Assembly: GCA_018664075.1 (NCBI GenBank)
Contig: JABJOY010000086.1
Coordinates: forward strand, 1-45,083
Reading direction: 5' to 3'
DNA from: Porticoccaceae bacterium
GTDB taxonomy: Bacteria; Pseudomonadota; Gammaproteobacteria; Pseudomonadales; Porticoccaceae
Length of the DNA stretch: 45,083 nt
Shown here: positions 8,617-29,924 of the stretch, in pieces
Position numbering within the stretch: position 1 is the first letter of the stretch
How the letters are laid out: each line of letters begins with the position of its first letter
Notes under the pieces: model-generated
The model's database searches: none
The model's input: the letters and a program-made list of their open reading frames with translations, nothing else
What the model was told of the DNA's origin: nothing
Made by a program: the position numbers and the translations under genes

Positions 8617-9636
<1,020 letters not shown>

Positions 9637-9648
9637 GCTGGGTGACTT

Positions 9649-12045
9649 ATGAAATTTAGTGAATCCTGGTTGCGAGAATCAGTCAATCCATCGATATCCA
9701 CAGAAGATCTGGTGGCTCAGATCACTATGGCAGGTCTTGAAGTGGACGCAGTTGATCCCGCTGCCCCTCAGATTTCTGGCGTGGTTGTCGGTGAAATACT
9801 TGCCGTAGAGCAGCATCCCGATGCAGACAAGTTACGCGTCTGTCAGGTCGCTGGCGGCGGCGAAACTGCTCAGGTGGTTTGCGGCGCACCCAATGCCCGC
9901 GCTGGTATAAAAGTGCCATTTGCCACGGTGGGTGCGAAATTGCCCGGTGACTTTAAGATTAAGAGAGCCAAACTGCGTGGTGTTGAGTCCTTTGGCATGC
10001 TCTGTGCCCAGACCGAATTGGAACTGGGTGATGACGATGACGGGCTGTGGGAGCTTCCCGCGGATGCTGCGGTAGGTACCGACCTGATTGAGTATCTGGA
10101 TCTTAACGACAACATTATCGAAGTAGATCTCACTCCAAATCGCGGTGATTGCCTGAGTATTCGGGGTCTGGCTCGCGAAGTAGGAGTGCTGAATCAAGCC
10201 CAGGTATCAGAGCAAGCCTGTGCCCCTGTGGCGGCGACAATCGATGATACTGTCAAGGTTACACTGGATGCGCCAGAGGGCTGTGCCCGCTATGTGAGCC
10301 GTGTTATCCGCGGTGTTGACCTCAGTCAGCCCACGCCCCAGTGGATGCAGGAAAAACTGCGTCGCAGTGGTGTACGCAGCCTGGGTCCTGCCGTCGATAT
10401 TACTAACTATGTATTGCTGGAGTTAGGTCAGCCAATGCATGCCTTTGACCTAACCAAGATCGATGGCGAGATAGTTGTACGCATGGGTCAGGATGAAAAG
10501 CTAAAGTTGCTGGATGACTCTGAGGTTACTGTTGATACAGAGACATTGGTGATTGCCGATCAGAGTAAAGCTCTGGCCATGGCCGGCATTATGGGCGGCG
10601 ATGAGTCTGCCGTAGCCGACAACACCGCCGATATATTATTTGAAAGCGCCTGGTTTAACCCTCTGGCAATTGCCGGCAAGGCACGCAACTATGGCAAGCA
10701 TACAGACTCCTCTCACCGCTTCGAGCGCGGCGTCGATGGCGGTCTGCAAGTGGCTGCCATTGAGCGAGCGACAGCACTGATGCTAGAGATTTGTGGGGGC
10801 AGTGCAGGGCCTGTGTCAGTGACAGAGTCTGCTGAGCACCTGCCAGTATCAGCGACCATTAGATTGCGCGATGCAAGACTGGCTCAGCAGCTGGGCGTAC
10901 CCATTGCCGCTGCTGATGTGGACGATATGCTAGTGCGTCTCGGCCTGTCTCAGATTGAGCGCAACGAGCAGGGATCCTCCTGGGTAGCTCCCAGCTGGCG
11001 TTTTGATCTTGAGATTGAGCAGGACCTGGTGGAAGAGGTAGCGCGCATCTATGGCTACAACAATCTGCCCACTTCAACCCCTTCAATGGCCCTTGAGTTG
11101 GAAGTAAACCCGGAAACCATTCAGGGATTGCCAGCCTTTAGAAGCCATCTGGTCGCCCGGGGTTATCAGGAAGCCGTGACCTACAGTTTTGTTGATCCGG
11201 ATCTGCAGAAGCTGATCGACCCAGAGATTACGCCGGTGGCTCTGGCTAATCCGATTTCAGCGGATATGGCTGTGATGCGCACCAGCCTGTGGCCAGGGTT
11301 ATTAAGTACAGCTGTACATAACCTTAATCGCCAGCAGAGCCGCGTGCGGATTTTTGAAGCCGGCCAGTGTTTTCTGCCAGCAGAGAACGCGGACGCAGAT
11401 TCGGTTTTAGGGCTGACCCAGAATATGGTTCTGGCAGGACTGATTTGTGGCACACGCACGCCCAGCGGCTGGACCGCAGGGAAAGACAAAGTCGATTTCT
11501 ACGATATTAAAGGTGACCTTGAAGCACTGCTCGACTCTACAGGTCTGGCAGCAGAGTTCCAGTTTGAGGCCAAACAGCACAGTGCCCTGCACCCCGGCCA
11601 GGCTGCAGCCCTTGTGCGTGGTGGCGAGCAGGTGGGCTGGATTGGGCAATTGCACCCGAAAATTCAGGCGGATCTGGGTATTGGCACTGCAGTTTATCTG
11701 TTTCAGGTTGAGGTAGATAAAATTGCCCCAAGCAGGCTGCCAAAATTTGAAGAAGTTAGCAAGTTCCCCGAAGTTCGCCGTGATTTAGCGTTTTTTGTCG
11801 ACATTTCCGTGCAGGCATCCGGCCTGATGGATGCAGCCAGGGCAGTAGCCGGTGATCAGTTGACCAATTTAAAGTTGTTTGACGTCTATCACAGCAAAGA
11901 TGTTGAAAACAAAGGAAAAAGTATTGCGCTAGGCTTGACGTTCCAGCATAGTTCACGCACGCTTACTGACGAAGAAATAAACGCGTCAGTAGATCGTGTA
12001 GTAAATGAATTGGGAATTAAATTTAAGGCTGAACTCAGGGGCTGA
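9649..12045 (+). CDS. pheT: Phenylalanine-tRNA ligase beta subunit
   Basis: 798 aa (E. coli 795). Partner of PheS. Domains in order: tRNA-binding EMAP/OB domain near the N-terminus (QHPDADKLRVCQV, VCGAPNARAGIKVPFATVGA), B3/B4 editing domain (MAGIMGGDESAVADNTADILFE), B5 domain, catalytic-like core, and C-terminal anticodon-binding ferredoxin fold (FPEVRRDLAFFVD, FQHSSRTLTDEEINASVDRV). ATG 9649 is preceded by a GGGTGA sequence. Complete, no disruption seen. Confidence 0.98.
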   Translation: MKFSESWLRESVNPSISTEDLVAQITMAGLEVDAVDPAAPQISGVVVGEILAVEQHPDADKLRVCQVAGGGETAQVVCGAPNARAGIKVPFATVGAKLPGDFKIKRAKLRGVESFGMLCAQTELELGDDDDGLWELPADAAVGTDLIEYLDLNDNIIEVDLTPNRGDCLSIRGLAREVGVLNQAQVSEQACAPVAATIDDTVKVTLDAPEGCARYVSRVIRGVDLSQPTPQWMQEKLRRSGVRSLGPAVDITNYVLLELGQPMHAFDLTKIDGEIVVRMGQDEKLKLLDDSEVTVDTETLVIADQSKALAMAGIMGGDESAVADNTADILFESAWFNPLAIAGKARNYGKHTDSSHRFERGVDGGLQVAAIERATALMLEICGGSAGPVSVTESAEHLPVSATIRLRDARLAQQLGVPIAAADVDDMLVRLGLSQIERNEQGSSWVAPSWRFDLEIEQDLVEEVARIYGYNNLPTSTPSMALELEVNPETIQGLPAFRSHLVARGYQEAVTYSFVDPDLQKLIDPEITPVALANPISADMAVMRTSLWPGLLSTAVHNLNRQQSRVRIFEAGQCFLPAENADADSVLGLTQNMVLAGLICGTRTPSGWTAGKDKVDFYDIKGDLEALLDSTGLAAEFQFEAKQHSALHPGQAAALVRGGEQVGWIGQLHPKIQADLGIGTAVYLFQVEVDKIAPSRLPKFEEVSKFPEVRRDLAFFVDISVQASGLMDAARAVAGDQLTNLKLFDVYHSKDVENKGKSIALGLTFQHSSRTLTDEEINASVDRVVNELGIKFKAELRG

Positions 12046-12090: not shown

Positions 12091-12390
12091 ATGGGTGCTT
12101 TAACCAAAGCTGATCTGGCGGAAATGCTATTTGATGAACTCGGTCTTAACAAGCGAGAGGCCAAAGAGATTGTTGAAATGTTTTACAGTGAAATCTGTGC
12201 GGCATTAGAGAGCAATGATCAGGTTAAGTTGTCCGGGTTTGGCAATTTTGAGTTGCGCGATAAAAGCAGCCGACCAGGCAGAAACCCTAAAACCGGCGAA
12301 GACATTCCTATTTCTGCACGGCGGGTAGTGACCTTTAAGCCCGGGCAGAAGCTAAAGGCTCGAGTAGAGAACTATGCTGGAACCAAGTAA
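12091..12390 (+). CDS. ihfA: Integration host factor alpha subunit
   Basis: 99 aa, family length. [20 protein letters not shown] and [28 protein letters not shown] with the DNA-arm motif are IHF-alpha. IHF bends DNA sharply at specific sites and works with IhfB. It follows pheT as in Enterobacteria and Pseudomonas. Its last 17 bases overlap the start of the MerR-like gene. Confidence 0.97.
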
Positions 12391-12727
12391 CAACAACGAA
12401 CTTCCCACCATTCCGGGCAAACGCTACTTCACCATTGGTGAGGTCAGCGAACTCTGTGCGGTGAAGCCCCATGTGCTGCGTTATTGGGAGCAGGAATTTC
12501 CGAGCTTAAATCCTGTAAAGCGCCGCGGCAATCGCCGCTATTATCAGCGTCAAGATGTAGTACTGATTCGCCAGATCCGTTCCTTACTCTATGAGCATGG
12601 GTTTACCATTGGCGGTGCCCGTCAGCGCCTGGACGGTGAATCCGCCAAACAAGAGCAAACTCCGTACAACCAACTTCTTGAGCAGACCATTGTCGAGTTG
12701 GAAGATATTCTAGAGGCTCTGAGCTAA
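12374..12727 (+). CDS. MerR-family transcriptional regulator (ihfA-linked)
   Basis: 117 aa. [30 protein letters not shown]-type winged-helix N-terminus followed by [16 protein letters not shown] is a MerR DNA-binding domain; the C-terminus is short and lacks cysteine metal ligands. This gene next to ihfA is widely conserved in gammaproteobacteria but its regulon is not known to me. The ATG overlaps the ihfA end by 17 bases, so it depends on ihfA transcription. Confidence 0.9.
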
Positions 12728-12802
12728 CAGCAAACCGTCGTCTGAAACTCACCAAATTTGTTGCAATAACATGCCTAGCCTGTATCATTGCGGCTCTCAA
12801 AT

Positions 12803-12879
12803 CGGGGCGTAGCGCAGCCTGGTAGCGCACTACACTGGGGGTGTAGTGGTCGCAGGTTCAAATCCTGCCGTCCCGACCA
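12803..12879 (+). tRNA. tRNA-Pro (GGG anticodon)
   Basis: 77-base cloverleaf. Acceptor CGGGGCG pairs with CGTCCCG (one G-U), discriminator A and an encoded CCA. The anticodon arm CTACA-CTGGGGG-TGTAG gives anticodon GGG. T arm GCAGG-TTCAAAT-CCTGC. Complete and apparently functional. Directly followed by a perfect palindromic terminator and then three long tandem repeats that carry pieces of this T arm. Confidence 0.96.
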
Positions 12880-12882
12880 ATT

Positions 12883-12924
12883 AAATAAAAAAGGCCATCT
12901 ATAAATAGATGGCCTTTTTTATTT
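12883..12924 (+). terminator. Perfect 20 bp palindromic terminator after tRNA-Pro
   Basis: Bases 12883-12902 and 12905-12924 are exact reverse complements around an AA loop. The GC part is GGCCATCTAT/ATAGATGGCC and the flanks are A-rich/T-rich, so it works as an intrinsic terminator in both directions. The right arm (AGATGGCCTTTTTTATTT) recurs at the head of each downstream repeat unit, but the left arm does not. Confidence 0.9.
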
Positions 12925-13099
12925 AACCGCCGGAACGGCGGATTCGAGCGTAAAGCGCCAGGTTCACAGATTGAGCCTGCGGCGCAATCTGGACGAGGAA
13001 CGAAGAGACGATGCCCCGAAGGGGTGCTAATAGCCCAGAGGCTATTAGCATCAAATCCTGCCAATCCGCCACCAACCTCGGTTTTGCCAAGTACCTAAT
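12907..13099 (+). repeat. tRNA-Pro-linked tandem repeat, unit 1 (193 bp)
   Basis: Begins AGATGGCCTTTTTTATTT, then hairpin CCGCCG-GAA-CGGCGG (12927-12941), then a structured module, and ends in a tRNA-like tail (TCAAATCCTGCC ... CCACCA, about 13050-13074). This copy differs most from the others. Only here does the tail contain AATCCGCC, complementary to GGCGGATT at 12937-12944, forming a would-be acceptor stem before CCACCA. Confidence 0.9.
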
Positions 13100-13293
13100 A
13101 GATGGCCTTTTTTATTTAACCGCCGGAACGGCGGATTCGAGCGTAAAGCGCCAGGTTCACAAATTACGCCTACGGCGGAATTTGGACAAGGAGCGCAGCG
13201 ACGCAGCCCCGCCGGGGTAGTAATAGCCCAAAGGCTATTACTATCAAATCCTGCCCCACCAAAGGCACCTCGGTCTTCCAAGTCATCCGCAAA
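13100..13293 (+). repeat. tRNA-Pro-linked tandem repeat, unit 2 (194 bp)
   Basis: Same plan as unit 1: T tract, CCGCCG-GAA-CGGCGG hairpin at 13120-13134, CAGGTTCA, internal hairpins, then TCAAATCCTGCCCCACCA. Nearly identical to unit 3. Compared with unit 1, both sides of the 11 bp hairpin (13218-13228 / 13233-13243) changed together. Confidence 0.9.
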
Positions 13294-13487
13294 AGATGGC
13301 CTTTTTTATTTAACCGCCGGAACGGCGGATTTGAGCGTAAAGCGCCAGGTTCACAAATTACGCCTACGGCGGAATCTGGACAAGGAGCGCAGCGACGCAG
13401 CTCCGCCGGGGTAGTAATAGCCCAAAGGCTATTACTATCAAATCCTGCTCCACCAACGGCACCTCGGTCTTCCAAGTCATTCGCAAA
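13294..13487 (+). repeat. tRNA-Pro-linked tandem repeat, unit 3 (194 bp)
   Basis: Third copy, ending TCAAATCCTGCTCCACCA and then the same AACGGCACCTCGGTCTTCC-like tail. Similarity stops near 13487. GGATTTGA (13326-13333) is perfectly complementary to TCAAATCC near 13438-13445; units 1 and 2 have GGATTCGA with one mismatch. Confidence 0.9.
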
Positions 13488-13591
13488 ACCCACAAAATTA
13501 CTGATATCCATAAACAAAACTATTTTGCCCGCACTCTGTCAGATTTATAATATGCTTCTTTGTATAAAATAAAAAATTAAGAGGGTGTAAT

Positions 13592-14155
13592 ATGAAAGCG
13601 ATGTTATTCCAGTCGTTTTTGGGTTTAGTTGAGGCTCAGTATGGGCCTGATGTTCTTGAAAGCATTATCTCTGATGCTGGTGCACCCAGTGAGGGTATTT
13701 ATACCACCAGTGGCGAGTACTCCCACAGAGAACTGATTGATTTAATCGTAGCCTTGAGCGAGCGCAGTAATGTGTCAGTCTCCAATTTGACCAAGAGCTT
13801 TGGTATGTATCATTTTGCCGAGTTTATTGCCGCTTATCCTCAGCTGTTTAAAGATCTGCACTCGTCCTTTGAACTGTTGGAGAAGATAGATAGCTTTATC
13901 CATGCAGAGGTCAAAAAACTCTATCCCGGTGCCAGACCGCCAAAATTTGATGTCAAAAGAACCAGCGATAAAACCATCGAGCTTCTGTATCAGTCGCCCC
14001 GTTGTATGGGAGATGTGGCCGAGGGTTTGATTCTGGGTTGTGCTGCCTATTACGGTGAAAAAGTGGCAGTAAAACGAGAAACCCTTGGCGATGGCTCTGG
14101 TTCTACTGAGCGATTCTTGTTGACCCAGCAGATTGCCGAGACGCCAAATTCCTAG
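13592..14155 (+). CDS. hnoX: H-NOX (HNOB) haem gas-sensor protein
   Basis: 187 aa, full H-NOX length (~180-190). Haem-binding marks are complete: proximal His104 in SFIHAEVKKLYPGARPP and the YxSxR motif at Tyr132-Ser134-Arg136 (YQSPR) that holds the haem propionates. The fold otherwise follows the family (GMYHFAEFIAAYP). H-NOX proteins sense NO (or O2) and usually partner a neighbouring histidine kinase, diguanylate cyclase or chemotaxis protein. Neither is adjacent here; the next gene is a convergent hydrolase 6 bases away. GAGGGTG lies 7-8 bases upstream of the ATG. Likely cytosolic. Confidence 0.92.
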   Translation: MKAMLFQSFLGLVEAQYGPDVLESIISDAGAPSEGIYTTSGEYSHRELIDLIVALSERSNVSVSNLTKSFGMYHFAEFIAAYPQLFKDLHSSFELLEKIDSFIHAEVKKLYPGARPPKFDVKRTSDKTIELLYQSPRCMGDVAEGLILGCAAYYGEKVAVKRETLGDGSGSTERFLLTQQIAETPNS

Positions 14156-29847: not shown

Positions 29848-29924
29848 TGGCGCACTCGGAAGGATTCGAACCTTCGACCGCCCGGTTCGTAGCCGGGTAC
29901 TCTATCCAGCTGAGCTACGAGTGC
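29848..29924 (-). tRNA. tRNA-Arg (ACG anticodon)
   Basis: Reverse strand cloverleaf of 77 bases: acceptor GCACTCG/CGAGTGC, discriminator G, encoded CCA (29848-29850), D arm with AGCTCAGCTGGATAGAG, anticodon arm CCCGG-CTACGAA-CCGGG (anticodon ACG, read as inosine after TadA), T arm AAGG-TTCGAAT-CCTT. Its 3' end faces the metal operon. Confidence 0.96.

Follow-up and report, generated by a model that had tools for sequence, protein, structure and literature searches.

Hairpin repeats behind a Porticoccaceae tRNA-Pro gene, probably a new branch of the RtT superfamily seated in copies of tRNA loops

Introduction

Most of what is known of RtT repeats comes from the tyrT operon of Escherichia coli (E. 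coli), together with cases that Rfam picked up in relatives such as Actinobacillus. The repeats of the tyrT operon were reportedly described by Bosl and Kersten in 1991. The Rfam model of the family, RF00391, scores the tyrT/tyrV units of E. coli at 132.9-137.5 bits, and the annotated rttR RNA of E. coli has its 3' end exactly at the tRNA-like CCA. According to a study of Actinobacillus pleuropneumoniae, relatives of RtT are RNAs by Northern blot, and two such RNAs, located upstream of tRNA-Asn and tRNA-Lys, gave Northern signals (PMC4986893). A tandem GA is noted in two papers on RtT (PMC7657543, PMC8250186), and a further related source is a reference entry (PMC11623569). Elsewhere, a BIME cluster upstream of other genes is found to resemble rtT (PMC2965389) and rttR is listed as REP-containing (PMC12306157). 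Our searches of PMC literature turned up papers on RtT and no account of a family that occurs at many tRNAs and is nested in the T-loop.

Other known systems resemble the repeats described here in part. REP/BIME palindromes with RAYT (Y1) transposases are also short, multi-copy, non-coding hairpin DNA, but the present family lies mostly beside tRNAs, is nested in a tRNA loop and has no association with Y1 transposases. Integron attC sites are short structured repeats in arrays as well, but the flanks of the present family are tRNA arms and no association with the integron integrase was seen. tRNA-targeting integrative elements, which have their att sites in T-loops, share the duplication of the tRNA 3' end, although the acceptor part of it is altered in our sequence. 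They differ from the present unit, which is without integrase or cargo and whose core is conserved across kinds of tRNA.

Here, we analysed three tandem repeats behind a tRNA-Pro(GGG) gene in a stretch of 45,083 nucleotides from a Porticoccaceae bacterium (the window). As judged from sequence, the array probably forms a new branch within an enlarged RtT superfamily rather than being an independent invention. The family is widespread and little described, and it comprises tRNA-loop hairpin sequences in many related bacteria. RtT would then appear as one branch of a gammaproteobacterial family that occurs at many different tRNAs. The simple rule for the seat of the core leads to testable predictions on the gain of cores at new tRNAs, on the insertion point and on action as RNA or as DNA, and the family could account for unannotated repeats behind tRNA genes.

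Results

The tRNA-Pro(GGG) gene of the window is intact according to ARAGORN and Rfam, and it is followed by a perfect 22-nt inverted repeat with a T-run (Table 1), in agreement with an earlier reading of the sequence alone (the sequence-only reading), which had described a complete tRNA-Pro and a terminator. This terminator-like hairpin is the centre of a larger inverted repeat and is not among the terminators of a stricter terminator and promoter scan. The minus-strand match listed in Table 1 means that the inverted repeat extends past the terminator. The tRNA 3' end thus occurs in three forms: in direct orientation within the tRNA itself, in inverted orientation behind the terminator, and again in direct orientation, but interrupted, in each repeat unit. 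A search of the complete window with Rfam gathering thresholds yields this tRNA-Pro, a tRNA-Arg at 29851-29924 and nothing else. The upstream genes, named from the look of their proteins, are presumably pheS (8623-9636), pheT (9649-12045), an IHF-alpha-like gene (12091-12390) and a MerR-like gene (12374-12727). By the ORF list, the next likely gene after the array starts at 13592, and the ORFs over the array have only 68-115 aa, none being integrase-sized. Promoters in 12700-13600 are not above chance (one found, upstream of the tRNA; 0.9 expected).

Table 1 Coordinates of the tRNA-Pro(GGG) gene, the terminator-like hairpin and the repeat units in the window.
Feature	Positions	Strand	Evidence or remark
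tRNA-Pro(GGG), intact	12803..12879	+	ARAGORN and Rfam (Rfam match ends 12876)
Perfect 22-nt inverted repeat and T-run	12881-12902 / 12905-12926	.	Terminator-like hairpin
Inverted copy of tRNA 3' end plus terminator	12881..12947	-	87% match to 12858-12926, BLAST
Unit 1, T5' half CAGGTTCA	12959..12966	+	
Unit 1, four-hairpin core	12967..13051	+	R1, 87.3 bits
Unit 1, T3' half CAAATCCTGCC, altered acceptor strand, CCA	13052..13074	+	
Unit 2, copy of terminator right arm	13097..13119	+	
Unit 2, T5' half	13152..13159	+	
Unit 2, core	13160..13244	+	R1, 100.7 bits
Unit 2, T3' half, shortened, CCA	13245..13261	+	
Unit 3, copy of terminator right arm	13291..13313	+	BLAST with tRNA plus terminator
Unit 3, T5' half	13346..13353	+	
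Unit 3, core	13354..13438	+	R1, 91.1 bits
Unit 3, T3' half, shortened, CCA	13439..13455	+	

The array consists of three direct repeats of 194 nt, which start at 12904, 13097 and 13291 (spacing 193 and 194); the repeats had been recognised before, with starts placed 3 nt off. Units 1, 2 and 3 have identities of 77%, 100% and 96% to the middle copy. The tRNA piece TCAAATCCTGC(C/T) recurs at 12858, 13051, 13244 and 13438, and the donor of this T-arm sequence is the tRNA-Pro(GGG) gene. Each unit has a core of about 85 nt between a T5' half, CAGGTTCA, and a T3' half, CAAATCCTGC. As the core lies between both halves of the tRNA's own T-arm, its seat is the T-loop of a truncated tRNA copy. The likeness of the units to the tRNA peaks in the T-loop and T-stem. 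A CCA is kept in all three units, but the acceptor part is altered or shortened to AATCCGCCACCA, CCCACCA and TCCACCA in units 1 to 3, respectively. A comparison of 21 units, from several tRNAs, shows that the core is composed of four hairpins, A to D. In hairpin B, the sequence GTCGC..GCGAC alternates with GGAGC..GCGAC, in which a tandem G-A step replaces two pairs. The repeats are beyond chance: the unit matches 29 of the 94 genomes searched, the window's own included. It is conserved in relatives, contrary to the lack of conservation that the sequence-only reading had named as a refutation.

The distribution of the core was determined with R1, a covariance model of the core only. T-arm sequence was excluded from it, so that the linkage to tRNAs can be tested without bias. 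The core set has 99 source loci, from which duplicates and several further loci, including L109, L110, L113 and L135-L155, were excluded. Loci L005-L031, found via the whole unit and so not unbiased, contribute 20 of the 99; with the window included, 21 of the 99 were found with, or are, the whole unit with its T-arm halves. Among 293 genomes of the order with a completeness of at least 90%, R1 matches 67 (own genome included), with up to 15 matches per genome. In a class sample it matches 20 of 323 genomes, 19 of them besides the own one. A DNA pattern scan of named genomes gave four contigs, one of which is from a Porticoccaceae MAG. The copy number of the unit and of the core differs between relatives. 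The own genome has the three array cores, two opposite-strand echoes and one weak match (L038, 29 bits). This weak match, at 1501-1581 of L038 on contig C63, is without clear T-arm halves and without a tRNA in its 1.5-kb flanks, and it is either a decayed copy or a chance match.

In 71 of 97 loci, which hold 135 cores, a core is located at most 150 nt downstream of a same-strand tRNA, and 19 anticodon kinds are represented; with about 45 tRNAs in 3 Mb, we estimate the chance of such a position for a random place at about 0.1%. The class sample adds 26 loci from the 19 genomes other than the own one; these have a same-strand tRNA at most 800 nt upstream (22 loci), just downstream (1) or none near (3). 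Around 12 orphan loci of the order, about 20 kb each (14 kb for one) were inspected. A fitting same-strand tRNA was found 4-8 kb upstream in four of them (L156, L158, L162 and L165), and the other eight had no related tRNA over about 20 kb. A cargo model, in which an orphan core is the far end of a mobile element, was rejected on these counts. At L165 a prophage-like element and at L162 an integrase-bearing element have displaced the array, which is still preceded by the tRNA 3' part and the terminator, while at L156 a transposase lies between the tRNA and the array. The prophage of L165 (2480-9600) inserted at tRNA-Arg(ACG) and pushed the array downstream; with a Zot-like protein and an integrase of 276 aa, it is presumably filamentous-phage-like.

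The insertion point of the core was located by threading the flanks of 93 cores on a same-strand tRNA within 1.5 kb. The flanks of 86 cores score at least 12 of 18 against the neighbouring tRNA, and those of seven score lower; with shuffled tRNAs (n = 119) the 95th percentile is 12 and the maximum 13. The break is in the T-loop in 81 of the 86; its distance from the tRNA 3' end is 18 nt in 57 cores and 19 nt in 24, which corresponds to a site after nucleotide 57 or 58 in tRNA numbering. The remaining breaks are in the D-loop (3), in the anticodon loop (1) and elsewhere (1). The D-loop and anticodon-loop copies, together with four T-loop copies, are upstream of their best-fitting tRNA and all belong to family f46; one of these four, L070, is also 79 nt behind a tRNA-Ser. 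The D-loop, anticodon-loop and some T-loop copies lie inside 5' fragments of tRNA-Ser, tRNA-Arg(CCG) and tRNA-Val. The seat of the branch, the loop of a tRNA-arm copy, follows a clear rule.

The flanks also carry the mark of the local tRNA. In 41 of 71 units, no other tRNA fits the 3' flank as well as the own one does. The spacer resembles the reverse complement of the 3' end of its own tRNA (8.7 vs 6.1), and this tRNA ranks first in 17 of 71. Identity to the tRNA stays at 0.90 along the T-stem strand, but the acceptor and CCA part decays (0.60), with at least 80% likeness in 32 of 71 units and at most half in 37. A new core can directly follow an old core (L084/L158; L032). Stems P1 and P2, specific to each tRNA, were also considered. 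The closing stem P1, predicted between the inverted T-arm piece and the T3' half, scores 6.01 within its own unit and 5.38 across units, with the own partner above all others in 3 of 71, and the complementarity of P2 is 5.19 for own and 5.17 for cross pairs. The own value is barely higher for P1 and no higher for P2, and this own-versus-cross comparison lent tRNA-specific stems no support.

Of 71 loci, 57 have a terminator-like hairpin with a T-run in the spacer that separates the tRNA from the core; of 71 shuffled spacers, none has one. In the core alignment, which was fitted to the model and contains only matches at E<=1e-7, 92.9% of the cells are paired, and double changes occur in 28 of the 29 pairs of the core hairpins (581 cells vs 129 in shuffles). 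GU and AC cells number 77 and 36, respectively, and 32 and 12 in 44 clusters under 75% identity; this excess of GU, about 2:1, is a sense-strand bias. The acceptor and T stems of 55 tRNAs from the same loci have a GU:AC ratio of 32:0, and the pairing changes of the cores are less RNA-like than those of the tRNAs. The loops give a mixed picture with regard to action at the DNA level. C(GNA)G loops are stable in DNA. Loops of 3 nt are found in 101 of 114 B hairpins and 98 of 110 C hairpins, with GNA in 45 and 73 and GNRA in 2 and 0, respectively, and UNCG in neither. Hairpin A has 3-nt loops in 75 of 79 and no GNA; hairpin D has 4-nt loops in 117 of 127, two of them GNRA. The units fold better than shuffles both as RNA (z from -2.9 to -3.7) and as DNA, and so does one minus-strand stretch folded as DNA.

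The window units lie directly downstream of a tRNA and contain a tRNA 3' end, which is a trait of RtT. The layout of the array resembles that of the E. coli tyrT/tyrV units, as the sequence-only reading had proposed: both are tandem units directly downstream of a tRNA, with a T5' half (GGTTCGA in E. coli), hairpins and a T3' half that runs to the CCA, and both have an inverted T-arm piece (GGATGAGAACC in E. coli) upstream of the unit. The tandem GA of the RtT literature is also found in hairpin B of the window family, and a hairpin of the E. coli tyrT-tyrV spacer, GGAGCGAAGCGAC, resembles hairpin B of the window cores. The two differ in the length and order of the core hairpins, and the window family usually has a terminator-like hairpin ahead of the unit. 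A check with Rfam and Infernal, which had been suggested for the repeats, gave no RtT match: RF00391 is absent from the window at its gathering score of 45 bits, and from 12600-13700 even at E up to 10. When thresholds were relaxed for the window stretch and for L025, L027, L031 and L021, Rfam gave no RtT and, besides tRNA, only weak matches below cut-off. Conversely, R1 does not recover the E. coli units, scoring there at most 9.1 bits, on the other strand.

Intermediates between the two models were found among relatives. RF00391 scores 34.1 at L136, 31.6 at L141 and 26.7 at L132. Four loci, each from a different genome, are matched by R1 and RF00391 on the same segment and strand, both at E<=0.001, namely G601:C17, G415:C23, G452:C35 and G449:C140. 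Their RF00391 scores (44.5, 31.6, 34.1 and 36.9, respectively) are all below 45, and the link between R1 and RtT through intermediates is therefore weak. Given these four genomes, the view that the array is an independent instance of a tRNA-linked repeat is not supported. RF00391 matches 51 of 276 class genomes at E<=0.001, with 18 over the cut-off. For 30 of those 51 genomes the best locus was retrieved, and in 25 of these the match follows a tRNA (Tyr, Gln, Ser or Glu) by no more than 150 nt. The same T-loop junctions can be seen by eye at RF00391 loci, with the proviso that RF00391, unlike R1, includes the T-arm halves. From the weak scores and the shared plan, we take RtT and the window family to be one superfamily, which would have two or more core types. 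In two species of the window's genus (L185 in G043 and L186 in G010), the T-loop slot of this tRNA-Pro(GGG) holds a core of another type that looks RtT-like by eye; RF00391 finds nothing in these cores at E up to 1.

The mean identity between cores is 0.649 for the same tRNA in other genomes, 0.632 for other tRNAs in the same genome and 0.600 for neither, so that the three means lie close together. Within a genus, cores of orthologous tRNAs are the most similar, which indicates that much of the distribution is inheritance. In four genomes (G219, G340, G054 and G212), cores at different tRNAs are each other's nearest. Apparently, cores moved or underwent conversion from one tRNA to another, the flanks remaining local. 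In arrays at tRNA-Arg(CCG), e.g. those of G209 and G265, the units share a locally diverged terminator arm, which points to unequal crossing-over. At tRNA-Pro and tRNA-Arg(CCG), empty sites have diverged too far to reveal an inserted piece. No mobilising enzyme linked to the core was found. A Y1 transposase is present in 16 of 30 genomes with the core vs 18 of 23 without, and an integron integrase over the cut-off in 11 of 30 vs 13 of 23, both being absent from the own genome; the 23 core-free genomes were drawn from among those listed in the order and class searches and include one (G016) with short unit fragments in the unit search. Blastn at E<=1e-5 gave no hit for unit 1 among plasmids and no hit for unit 2 among phages.

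Discussion

The explanation that we prefer, with confidence about evenly poised, is that the array belongs to a new branch of the RtT superfamily, in which cores of about 85 nt sit in tRNA-loop copies and would act and spread at the DNA level. For this branch, a DNA-level hairpin element appears, short of proof, more likely than a trailer RNA. The core would be a single-strand DNA hairpin sequence that is copied into the loop of a tRNA-gene arm, mostly the T-loop and at times the D- and anticodon loops. Copying would come with a partial duplication of the tRNA, the intact tRNA surviving alongside, and would probably involve a fold-back at the palindromic tRNA/terminator and a switch of template there. 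Unequal crossing-over between units would subsequently enlarge the arrays and make their units more alike. Since no enzyme is linked to the core, we infer the copying step. A bolder version, which we hold tentatively and consider somewhat more apt to be wrong than right, would make the cores a new class of mobile DNA that inserts precisely in the loops of tRNA arms, produces a fresh partial tRNA copy each time, uses the tRNA arm as its landing site and is ancestral to the RtT RNAs. Its landing sites would be in the T-loop after nucleotide 57 or 58, and in the D- and anticodon loops after CGA.

The units could instead encode an RtT-type regulatory RNA, made by read-through past the terminator or from its own promoter and cut at the CCA like a tRNA trailer. 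It would be a small RNA with a defined structure that may influence tRNA maturation or the stringent response. We regard this as rather unlikely. The following agrees with it: the plan shared with E. coli RttR, whose annotated 3' end is at the tRNA-like CCA, the strong covariation, the excess of GU over AC (77:36) and the RNA folding, better than in shuffles (z -2.9 to -3.7). The tandem GA that hairpin B shares with RtT (PMC7657543, PMC8250186) and the Northern signals of the A. pleuropneumoniae study (PMC4986893) point the same way. Nevertheless, the core is preceded by a terminator-like hairpin in 57 of 71 loci, no promoter rises above chance in 12700-13600, the acceptor/CCA part is not kept (0.60 vs 0.90 in the T-stem) and the GU:AC ratio of the cores is far from the 32:0 of the tRNAs. 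Because of the terminator at tRNA-Pro, the main product there is unlikely to be a tRNA-trailer RNA; at RtT-like loci that lack a terminator, transcription may occur in addition.

It is improbable, in our judgement, that the units are att-site remnants, left by small non-autonomous integrative elements through a tyrosine recombinase crossover in the T-loop and tandem insertion. Such elements would duplicate the tRNA 3' end as at att sites, tRNA-Pro has the look of a hot spot in the genus and islands displace some arrays, but the units contain no integrase, the integron integrase is not associated, and the elements of L165 and L162 break the tRNA near the anticodon, not in the T-loop, and outside the units. 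Both T-arm halves around the core and the inverted copy would also be left unexplained. A neutral by-product, i.e. an old insertion in a tRNA copy that was amplified by unequal crossing-over and has neither function nor mobility, would be at odds with the presence of the same core at many tRNAs of distant families, where compensatory changes preserve its hairpins (alignment fitted to the model, only matches at E<=1e-7). We think it very doubtful, even though homogenised arrays with local terminators and differing copy numbers among relatives would be in line with it.

Some minor observations concern the surroundings and the interior of the units. At L194, L197 and L198, other sequence is found directly after the CCA of tRNA-Pro(GGG), and in G020:C36 and G019:C4 a tRNA 3' part is located about 12 kb and 17 kb, respectively, from the intact tRNA-Pro(GGG). 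This tRNA looks like an integration hot spot in the window's genus. The spacers of L010, L014 and L022 have a second dispersed palindromic repeat, CCCTCGACTGCGCTCGGGATGACA-like, between units. A sequence of about 50 nt, which consists of the hairpin CAGATTTTTGCTCCTGCAAAATCTG and the letters that follow it, is found both in L016 (at about 1600-1647) and in the second unit of L029 (1301-1416, minus strand). It takes the position of hairpin B inside the core in these two genomes, at tRNA-Pro and tRNA-Leu(TAA), and it looks like another small dispersed element.
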